From assembly GCA_030949385.1 (NCBI GenBank), contig JAUZSP010000003.1:248001-312000 (forward strand): DNA of 64,000 bases, in the 5' to 3' direction. The notes under the pieces were generated by a model. It was given only the letters and a program-made list of their open reading frames with translations. It did not search any database and was not told the DNA's origin. The DNA comes from Gammaproteobacteria bacterium. GTDB taxonomy: Bacteria > Pseudomonadota > Gammaproteobacteria > JAUZRS01. The position numbers and the translations under genes are program-made. Positions 51,953 through 54,132 of this stretch are shown piece by piece; positions within the stretch are counted from its first letter, which is position 1; each line of letters begins with the position of its first letter.

Positions 51953-52696
51953 CTAAGAGATCTCGCTGGGGTTCATCAACGGTTGCAGAGTGTGGCGCAG
52001 ATGTTTAAACAGCGTCGGGTGTTGTGCTGCTTGTTTGGCCAGCAGCTGTTTCATCTGTTGTCGCTGCTGAGGTTTGGAAAAACACGCAGGGCAGTTTTCG
52101 GCAATCACCGGCAGTTTAGCCGCTTGAGCAAAGTCTGCCAATTGCTGTTCACGGCAATAGACCAGCGGTCGAATGATGCGCAGGTCACCGTCGTCGTTGC
52201 GGTAGTGGGCTTTCATGGTTTGCAGTTGGCCATTAAAGAAGGCGGCCATTAAAAAACTTTCGGCCAGATCATCCAGATGTTGTCCTAGGGCAATGACATT
52301 GTAGCCTTGTTCTCGTGCGATTTGATAGATTTTACCCCGTTTGAGACGCGAGCAAAAGGCGCAGTAGGAGGATTTGCCCAGATGTTTTTGCGCTAAGGTT
52401 TCGATAGCATAAGGTTGATAATGATAATCAATTTTTTGTGCTTTGAGATAAGGGATCAGGGGGCTGGGGTCAAAGTCCGCTGTTTGTGGGTCGATGGTGA
52501 TGGCAGCCAACTCAAAACGAACCGGTGCGCGCTGTTGCAGTCGTTGCAGCAGATGCAGCAGGGAGAGTGAATCTTTGCCGCCAGAGAGGCCGAGTAAAAT
52601 GCGGTCGCCCTCACGAATCATATCAAAATCGGCAATCGCTTCACCCAAAGGGCGTAACACATTTTTGGGAAAGAGGTGGTTTGGAAGGCTGTGCAT
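51953..52696 (-). CDS. ttcA: TtcA, tRNA 2-thiocytidine synthetase
   Basis: ATP-dependent enzyme that thiolates cytidine 32 of tRNA. About 247 residues from ATG 52696 (or 255 from 52720). The PP-loop is LLGLSGGKDSLSLLHLL (about 36), and two CxxC motifs, CAFCSRLKRG (about 118) and CPACFSKPQQR (about 210), hold the 4Fe-4S cluster. GHHLDD-type GQHLDDLAESF (about 144) matches TtcA. It is slightly shorter than the E. coli protein (about 310), mainly at both ends. The gene overlaps no neighbour and abuts the acyltransferase. Confidence 0.9.
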   Translation of the reverse strand: MHSLPNHLFPKNVLRPLGEAIADFDMIREGDRILLGLSGGKDSLSLLHLLQRLQQRAPVRFELAAITIDPQTADFDPSPLIPYLKAQKIDYHYQPYAIETLAQKHLGKSSYCAFCSRLKRGKIYQIAREQGYNVIALGQHLDDLAESFLMAAFFNGQLQTMKAHYRNDDGDLRIIRPLVYCREQQLADFAQAAKLPVIAENCPACFSKPQQRQQMKQLLAKQAAQHPTLFKHLRHTLQPLMNPSEIS

Positions 52697-52755
52697 TCCG
52701 GCACGATACCGTTGCAACAATAGGCTGGCAAGTGGTGGCGGTAAAAACAGCAGGC

Positions 52756-52790
52756 AAAAAAAAGACCTCAGTCATTCCTTGATCGAGGCC
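52756..52790 (-). terminator. terminator of the GGA-rich small RNA
   Basis: On the minus strand GGCCTC...GAGGTC (one G-U pair) forms a stem with a GGA-containing loop, followed by T8. It lies beyond the ttcA 5' end, so it ends transcription coming from about 52918. Confidence 0.8.
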
Positions 52791-52919
52791 ACTGCCATAG
52801 GGCAGGAGGTGAATAAGAGTAAGATCCGTGGATTCCTAGTACATCCTTGTGAGTATTAACCGAGGGGTTTGATACTCGTGACTCCTTGTCAGTGTGGGTC
52901 CTTATCGCTGATCCCCAGC
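52756..52919 (-). ncRNA. CsrB/RsmY/RsmZ-like CsrA-sequestering small RNA
   Basis: A gene-free stretch that on the minus strand carries seven GGA motifs in about 160 nt (plus-strand TCC at 52776, 52825, 52834, 52844, 52883, 52899, 52912), most as AAGGA, TAGGA or GGGGA. GGA repeats displayed in hairpins are the hallmark of RNAs that titrate the translation regulator CsrA/RsmA. A strong hairpin GAGTAT...ATACTC (plus 52851-52876) sits centrally, and a T-rich terminator closes the unit. The -10 is probably TATAAC (52931-52926), giving a start near 52919. With the upstream GacA-like palindrome, this fits a GacA-controlled Rsm/Csr RNA. The 5' end is approximate. Confidence 0.72.
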
Positions 52920-53000
52920 AACGTGGTTATAGTGGCATGCGGCTATAAATGGCGATACAGAGATTGTTGATCTTTTAGTGTGGTGAACGTTGTTTTGTTT

Positions 53001-53018
53001 TGTAGGATTTTTCCTACA
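53001..53018. promoter_or_regulatory. GacA-box-like palindrome
   Basis: TGTAGGATTTTTCCTACA is an exact 18-bp palindrome in its arms, with the TGTArG-N6-CyTACA layout of the GacA upstream activating sequence (consensus TGTAAG-N6-CTTACA, one transition per arm). It lies about 80-100 bases upstream of the predicted small-RNA start, a usual GacA-box distance. It could also serve the divergent pip gene. Confidence 0.7.
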
Positions 53019-53181
53019 AATACTGTTTTTTTATATCCATTTTGGGGTGTCTTTGGGGTGATGGTTCGTTTGGTGCTGTTGCTGGTAGGGTTTTGTCTAT
53101 GCTCAGTGAGGTTGGGAGCTTGCTTTGTCCATGACGTTGGGGTGAAGATCAGTAGGACTATTTGAAGGAGAGAAAGACCTT

Positions 53182-54132
53182 ATGTTGAGTTTGTTTGCAG
53201 AGATTAAAGAGTATGTAAAACATTCACTGCCCGTTGGCGGTGATCATATTTTACACCTGCGTGAGTACGGTCGTGCTGATGGCATTCCAGTGCTGTTTCT
53301 ACACGGTGGCCCAGGAGCGGGGTGTGAGGCGTTTCATGCGCGTTTTTTTGATCCCGATGTCTATCGGATTATTTTGTTTGATCAGCGCGGTTGTGGCCTT
53401 TCTGCGCCTCACGCCAGCTTGCACGCCAACACCACGTGGGATTTGGTGGGAGACATCGAACAGATTCGCCGCCACTTAAAAATTGAGTCGTGGCTGGTGT
53501 TTGGTGGTTCGTGGGGGTCAACCTTGGCGTTGGCCTACGCGCAAACGCATCCTGAGCGGGTGCTGGGTCTGATTCTGCGCGGTATTTTTCTCTGTCGCCA
53601 AAAAGACATTCATTGGTTTTACCAAGAGGGTGCGAGCCGCGTATTTCCTGAGTTTTGGCGGGATTTTATCGCGCCTATTCCTGTAGAAGAGCGTGGCGAT
53701 CTGTTGGCGGCGTACCATAAACGGCTCTTTTCTAAGGATGAGGTGGCGCGCATGGCGGCGGCTAAAGCGTGGTCGGTGTGGGAAGGATGCAGCTCCAATT
53801 TGCGCCCCAATCCGGCGGTGGTACAGCATTTTTCCAATCCGTATGTGGCGCTCAGTTTGGCGCGTATTGAGTGCGATTATTTTATGAACGACTGTTATTT
53901 AAAGCCCAATCAATTGGTGAAGAACGCCGCTAAATTAAAGGGTATTCCTGGGGTGATTGTGCATGGCCGTTACGACATGGTTTGCCCCGTGGATCAGGCC
54001 ATTGAGCTGCATCAAGCATGGCCAGAGGCGGAGCTGAACATTATCGCTGATGCGGGTCACTCGGCTCTGGAAACGGGCATTGTGGATGCGTTGGTGCGCG
54101 CCACCAATCAGATGGCCGGGCGGCTTAAATGA
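53182..54132 (+). CDS. pip: proline iminopeptidase
   Basis: Alpha/beta hydrolase of peptidase family S33 that removes N-terminal proline. 316 residues, cytoplasmic (no signal). Motifs are LFLHGGPGAGCEAFHARFFDP (oxyanion HGGPG, about 38), FDQRGCGLSAPHA, the nucleophile GGSWGSTLALAYAQTHP (serine about 112), VHGRYDMVCPVDQA (catalytic D) and DAGHSALE (catalytic H). The WSVWEGCSSNLRP cap segment is typical of Pip. An AGGAG site precedes ATG 53182. It overlaps dtd by 4 bases. Confidence 0.95.
   Translation: MLSLFAEIKEYVKHSLPVGGDHILHLREYGRADGIPVLFLHGGPGAGCEAFHARFFDPDVYRIILFDQRGCGLSAPHASLHANTTWDLVGDIEQIRRHLKIESWLVFGGSWGSTLALAYAQTHPERVLGLILRGIFLCRQKDIHWFYQEGASRVFPEFWRDFIAPIPVEERGDLLAAYHKRLFSKDEVARMAAAKAWSVWEGCSSNLRPNPAVVQHFSNPYVALSLARIECDYFMNDCYLKPNQLVKNAAKLKGIPGVIVHGRYDMVCPVDQAIELHQAWPEAELNIIADAGHSALETGIVDALVRATNQMAGRLK

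Follow-up and report, generated by a model that had tools for sequence, protein, structure and literature searches.

The minus strand at 52756..52920 very probably carries the gene for an untranslated RNA of about 165 nt, which would be activated by GacA and would sequester CsrA in the manner of CsrB, RsmY and RsmZ. Most likely it belongs to a well-known type of RNA, and its gene is conserved and unrecognised by the standard RNA library. The sponge reading, put forward in the initial annotation, is supported in the sequence by the GGA sites, the terminator and a GacA-type box that is unique in the genome, by csrA and a putative gacA orthologue in a gacA-uvrC-pgsA array, by the conservation in the sister species, and by the recurrence of box and RNA beside the neighbouring gene pip in distant genomes.

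The window, i.e., the whole analysed stretch of 64,000 nucleotides, corresponds to C3:248001-312000 of a 2.87-Mb genome in ten contigs; the sampled genomes of the host's family and order are this one and one other, that of the sister species G001. The interval with the box and the RNA sits between two genes. Downstream of the RNA and co-directional with it lies a ttcA-like ORF (51953..52720, minus), whose product was matched in the profile search by NF007972 TtcA (233.8 bits vs the cut-off of 272) and by PF01171. Divergent from the RNA, on the plus strand, lies the ORF of an alpha/beta hydrolase (53182..54132, PF00561), here called pip, since we take it to be proline iminopeptidase-like; its homologues adjoin similar RNAs elsewhere. 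Both genes look like position markers of the RNA rather than its targets.

Organisation of the candidate RNA

The 5' end of the RNA is inferred, to within a few nucleotides; a probable -10 element TATAAC (52926..52931, minus) was identified by eye, with no -35 element called and no promoter called for the RNA by the sigma-70 scan, and TATAAT stands at the corresponding place in locus L032 of another genome. Seven GGA motifs start, on the minus strand, at 52914, 52901, 52885, 52846, 52836, 52827 and 52778. In the predicted minus-strand fold, the first lies in the loop of a 5' hairpin (52904..52922) and the third in the loop of a small hairpin GAC-AAGGA-GTC (52879..52891); the central hairpin GAGTAT...ATACTC (52851..52877) is without GGA, the fourth, fifth and sixth motifs lie at 52825..52850, and the seventh is in the loop of an intrinsic terminator (52756..52790) with a T8 tail (52763-52756), whose stem is kept in L032 and L109, so that GGA 1, 3 and 7 of the seven are predicted to lie in hairpin loops. 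The seven GGA motifs, T8 terminator, central hairpin and 18-bp palindrome of the initial annotation are thus all present where it had placed them.

The preferred CsrA target has been described as RUACARGGAUGU, with the GGA mostly in a small hairpin loop (passages of PMC7652899), and the sequence ACAAGGATGT around GGA 4 is close to this SELEX consensus, being the best match to it among the GGAs. The computed ensemble has this GGA 4 base-paired for the most part (unpaired 0.09), and the mean GGA accessibility is only modestly raised (0.49 vs 0.39). The folding energy is ordinary (z -0.73, with 44 of 200 shuffles folding equally well), and a count of at least seven GGA was reached in 416 of 5000 dinucleotide shuffles, which is not significant, and in 2 of 5000 mononucleotide shuffles. 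A stronger signal than the GGA count comes from the five ANGGA motifs, as five or more arose in 16 of 5000 dinucleotide shuffles. Among the 98 terminator-like sites of the window, that of the RNA ranks first by both GGA (7, the next 6) and ANGGA (5, the next 2). The structural covariation is of no use as proof, since in the four sequences compared the consensus structure comprises the terminator only, with 9 pairs, one of them changed on both sides. A protein-coding gene was considered and rejected, the longest stop-free frame within the RNA having 50 codons and no Met.

GacA-type box and conservation in the sister species

The GacA/UvrY-type box TGTAGGAAAAATCCTACA (TGTAGG-AAAAAT-CCTACA, 53001..53018) is an exact TGTARG-N6-CYTACA, centred about 90 nt upstream of the inferred RNA start. 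Comparable sites are the 18-nt inverted repeats for UvrY/GacA upstream of csrB, centred at -183/-182 (according to passages of PMC4682653), and the GacA palindrome TGTAAG-N6-CTTACA at about -75 in rsmY and -196 in rsmZ (according to passages of PMC4950607). The box at 53001-53018 is the sole exact copy in the genome, where 0.68 would be expected by chance under uniform base use, and with at most one mismatch there are 12 sites in the genome vs 10 for the reversed control pattern; therefore, the box alone would not convince. The search for further boxes, which had been suggested at the outset, brought no second exact copy, and the one-mismatch sites of the genome (11 loci, L013-L023) are without a terminator element of at least six GGA within 500 nt.

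What takes the box beyond chance is its position directly upstream of the element, its recurrence beside pip elsewhere and the complete preservation of its sequence in the sister species, where 0 of 18 positions are changed. The RNA differs at 3 of 166 positions (3 of 184 together with the box), vs 20 of the 68 sites of the spacer between box and -10 element, and vs 80 of 570 third codon positions of the flanking genes (51 of 316 in pip and 29 of 254 in ttcA). The Fisher test gave p ~1e-7 for box and RNA against the third codon positions, and ~2e-9 for the RNA against the spacer; the case beyond chance is carried by this strong conservation, where the box by itself falls short.

Csr/Gac pathway components

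The genome encodes one copy of csrA (PF02599, 90.9 bits). The best GacA/UvrY-like candidate (C1:183807-184439) scores about 249-251 bits to NF007018, vs the cut-off of 280, the next regulator having 117; it comprises a receiver and a LuxR-type domain and directly precedes ORFs that read, by eye, as UvrC and PgsA, an order that we take to be the usual arrangement for gacA/uvrY. The BarA/GacS profile gave 68 matches in the genome, none over the cut-off, and its three best candidates are hybrid kinases of other architectures, the top one being an EAL/GGDEF hybrid. The domain PF09984, presumably the periplasmic sensor domain of BarA, is absent from the genome, with the E. coli control positive. 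The genome check for gacS, gacA and csrA thus came out in part: csrA and a GacA-like regulator were found, while a canonical BarA/GacS sensor was not recognised by the profiles or by PF09984.

Comparison with known sponge RNAs

As the initial annotation had predicted, the RNA is missed by the standard models: the Rfam covariance models of any family gave nothing at 52700-53060 even at E<=10. The CsrB model matches in the E. coli control and, run over the whole genome, matched elsewhere only, below the gathering score, and not at the window RNA. At gathering scores no Rfam match was obtained for 20 box-RNA loci, which were picked from 64 rows, several of them representing the same site, and of which most have at least six GGA and L033, L088 and L101 have 4 or 5. 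In the open literature on CsrA/GacA sRNAs no description of the window RNA or of its linkage to pip was found.

The RNA resembles RsmY, RsmZ and RsmX of Pseudomonas in its size class, in the GGA number (6 to 10 in P. brassicacearum, by passages of PMC7911923) and in the upstream GacA palindrome (passages of PMC4950607). Unlike them, it has no Rfam match, carries the box variant TGTAGG-N6-CCTACA and lies between pip and ttcA. To our knowledge, the pip-ttcA setting is not that of the rsm genes. With CsrB/CsrC of enteric bacteria (RF00018) it shares the upstream GacA/UvrY inverted repeat (passages of PMC4682653), the repeated GGA and the terminator; however, the CsrB model has 356 positions and, with no match at the window RNA, gives weak matches at two other sites in the genome. 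Seven GGA motifs are also found in RsmW of P. aeruginosa, which binds RsmA but is apparently derived from a 3'UTR, its only GacA site being weak and lying about 830 bp upstream (all in passages of PMC4950607), whereas the box in the window is exact and near.

Recurrence in other gammaproteobacteria

When the RNA was searched by blastn against 369 genomes of the class, the hits beyond the genus were limited to 15 short matches (about 20-40 nt), of which 8 fell on the box, and no wider homologue of the RNA sequence appeared. The recurrence was seen by other marks. Among 36 loci of TtcA relatives, a pip homologue is present in 8 (L030, L032, L033, L044, L047, L048, L050, L054), of which L030, L032 and L033 have the exact box, and L044, L047, L048, L050 and L054, of Halothiobacillus type with a pip-ttcA gap of about 170 bp, are without it. 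The locus L032 repeats the layout of the window, i.e., box, TATAAT, GGA-rich RNA, terminator with GGA in the loop and ttcA, with little sequence identity; L109 likewise has the window's layout with a diverged sequence, and the element of L033, a locus of Thiohalobacter thiocyanaticus Hrh1, is weaker (5 GGA).

The exact box occurs in 127 of the 369 class genomes. Among the 30 box loci listed (L081-L110), at least six GGA and a terminator were found on one side in 6 (L095, L099, L102, L104, L108, L109). Counted by direction, such a GGA-rich terminator element accompanies 6 of 60 box directions vs 51 of 3422 random placements (p 0.0004), the boxes having been found regardless of GGA and the random positions drawn from the same loci. 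A pip homologue, which formed no part of the query, adjoins 4 of these 6 loci (L099, L104, L108, L109) and none of the 24 other listed ones.

Conversely, pip was matched at 1e-60 in 199 of the 369 class genomes, and at the best 30 pip places a box with at most one mismatch within 900 nt upstream was present in 8 (L152, L153, L157, L160, L162, L167, L171, L180) and absent in 22; at the pip locus L176 there is a box with two mismatches and a GGA-rich element. At least six GGA and a terminator follow in the same stretch at 7 of the 8 boxed loci; in L171 the element, inspected by eye, extends beyond the stretch. Outside the genus, boxed pip loci number 6 of 28, vs about 0.1 expected from the box rate of a single genome, the host's own. 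All these rates are from L081-L110 of the box search and the 30 best pip matches; 20 further regions, hand-picked from the listed boxes with a leaning to symmetric A/T-rich ones, were therefore excluded from them. The pip-linked box-RNA was found under ten family labels (f1, f49, f67, f86, f93, f106, f125, f127, f141, f154), a tally that combines the box search, the pip search and the hand-picked L128 and L130. The next gene is ttcA in the window, L030, L032, L104, L109, L128/L180 and L171, and also in L033, after two opposite-strand ORFs.

Some box loci have other forms. In L069 (1504-2161, genome G362) one box is followed by two GGA-rich blocks of 10 GGA each, each with a terminator-like end, resembling a tandem pair of sponge RNAs. 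In L095 and L131 the box-linked GGA-rich elements are longer, with terminators about 370-390 nt past the box, and have no pip match and no Rfam match.

Alternative explanations

It is very unlikely that the element is a 5' leader or attenuator of ttcA, regulating that gene by termination and read-through. It does run co-directionally with ttcA in the window, its end lying some 40 nt upstream of the ttcA start, and the same direction and short distance are seen in L030, L032, L109, L104, L128 and L171. However, the two opposite-strand ORFs separate it from ttcA in L033; in L099, L130, L157, L160 and L167 the box-element adjoins pip and the examined locus shows no ttcA match; and similar box-elements occur at loci with neither a pip nor a ttcA match, such as L069, L095, L123, L131 and L132. 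Moreover, neither a GacA box nor repeated ANGGA would be expected of a ttcA attenuator. Very unlikely, too, are an intergenic transcript of another function, such as a base-pairing sRNA, and the absence of any RNA, the GGAs and the box then being coincidental: the ordinary folding energy and a GGA count within the range of dinucleotide shuffles would fit coincidence, but box and RNA are better conserved than third codon positions (p ~1e-7), and box, GGA and terminator recur beside pip in other families where the other sequence is lost; the 50-codon frame without Met speaks against these readings as well. That the palindrome is instead a plus-strand hairpin terminator or a pip operator, as the flagging of 52999-53020 on the plus strand by the terminator scan, the near-chance number of exact boxes per genome and the position of the box upstream of pip might suggest, is almost certainly wrong, as the plus strand has no gene leading into it, its form fits UvrY/GacA sites in the published passages (PMC4682653, PMC4950607), and the box precedes GGA-rich elements with no pip match at L069, L095, L123, L125, L129, L131, L132 and L134.

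Other GGA-rich stretches of the genome

A pattern of three spaced ANGGA was matched 69 times in the forward and 55 times in the reverse direction of the host genome, vs 39 and 51 in the controls, and, therefore, is not selective by itself. Two stretches stand out among the matches listed. The first (C3:74333-73970, minus, locus L212) has 22 GGA and 10 ANGGA in 364 nt, compared with the window maximum of 15 GGA and 7 ANGGA per 360 nt, a terminator with GGA in the loop, and a weak CsrB match (20.9 bits, E 0.0012, gathering 71); about 150 nt upstream of it is a TGTGA-N6-TCACA palindrome, which we take to be of the CRP type. The second (C7:325901-325488, minus, L213), intergenic and before a tRNA gene, has 20 GGA in 414 nt and a CsrB score of 24.3 bits (gathering 71), with no clear T-run terminator. 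No box with fewer than three mismatches was found in the examined stretch of either. By these features, the window RNA is probably not the only sponge of the genome, C3:74333-73970 being a clear and C7:325901-325488 a possible CsrB-like candidate; if both are real, the window RNA is the single member with a GacA box.

Two further observations were made in passing. A possible candidate for a CsrA-controlled leader is C6:431907-432016 (plus, L214), where several ANGGA occur and the last of them takes the Shine-Dalgarno position of a short ORF that follows a truA-like ORF. Adjoining C3:74333-73970 is a CRISPR-like repeat array (C3:73018-73700, L212), in which a 17-nt core is present in 12 copies at intervals of 60-62 nt, presumably of type I-F by its repeat.

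Proposed mechanism and significance

Transcription, the binding of GacA and CsrA and an effect on targets would be expected of such a gene as follows. Phosphorylated GacA would bind the palindrome at 53001-53018 and activate the promoter, the transcript starting about 90 nt downstream of the palindrome; the RNA would end at its own terminator, display several GGA sites and bind CsrA dimers, so that CsrA-controlled mRNAs would be released while the GacA pathway is on. The likely action is thus the sequestration of CsrA during GacA activity. The sponge RNAs titrate CsrA in trans, and for this reason the control of the neighbouring metabolism, biofilm and pilus genes by Gac/Rsm, claimed in the initial annotation, does not follow from the position of the RNA.

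A broader reading is tentative, at a little under an even chance: an old gammaproteobacterial sponge gene may have been kept beside pip, in many cases with ttcA on its other side, together with its GacA box, while the RNA sequence was almost wholly turned over, so that the orthologues are marked only by position, box, GGA content and terminator. The host would then have two or three sponges, this one driven by GacA and the others by other inputs, and GacA would work without the usual BarA/GacS sensor domain. Such a near-complete turnover would explain why sequence-based catalogues miss the gene; the conservation of its position beside pip is somewhat surprising.

Most work on GacA/Csr control concerns enteric bacteria, vibrios and pseudomonads; the present locus indicates that such control is very probably at work in an uncultured lineage of gammaproteobacteria as well. 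The simple rule of a GacA box followed by a GGA-rich terminator element, often beside pip, may lead to sponge RNAs that are invisible to the Rfam models, and the positional orthologues with almost no common sequence would provide a test case for the evolution of protein-titrating RNAs.
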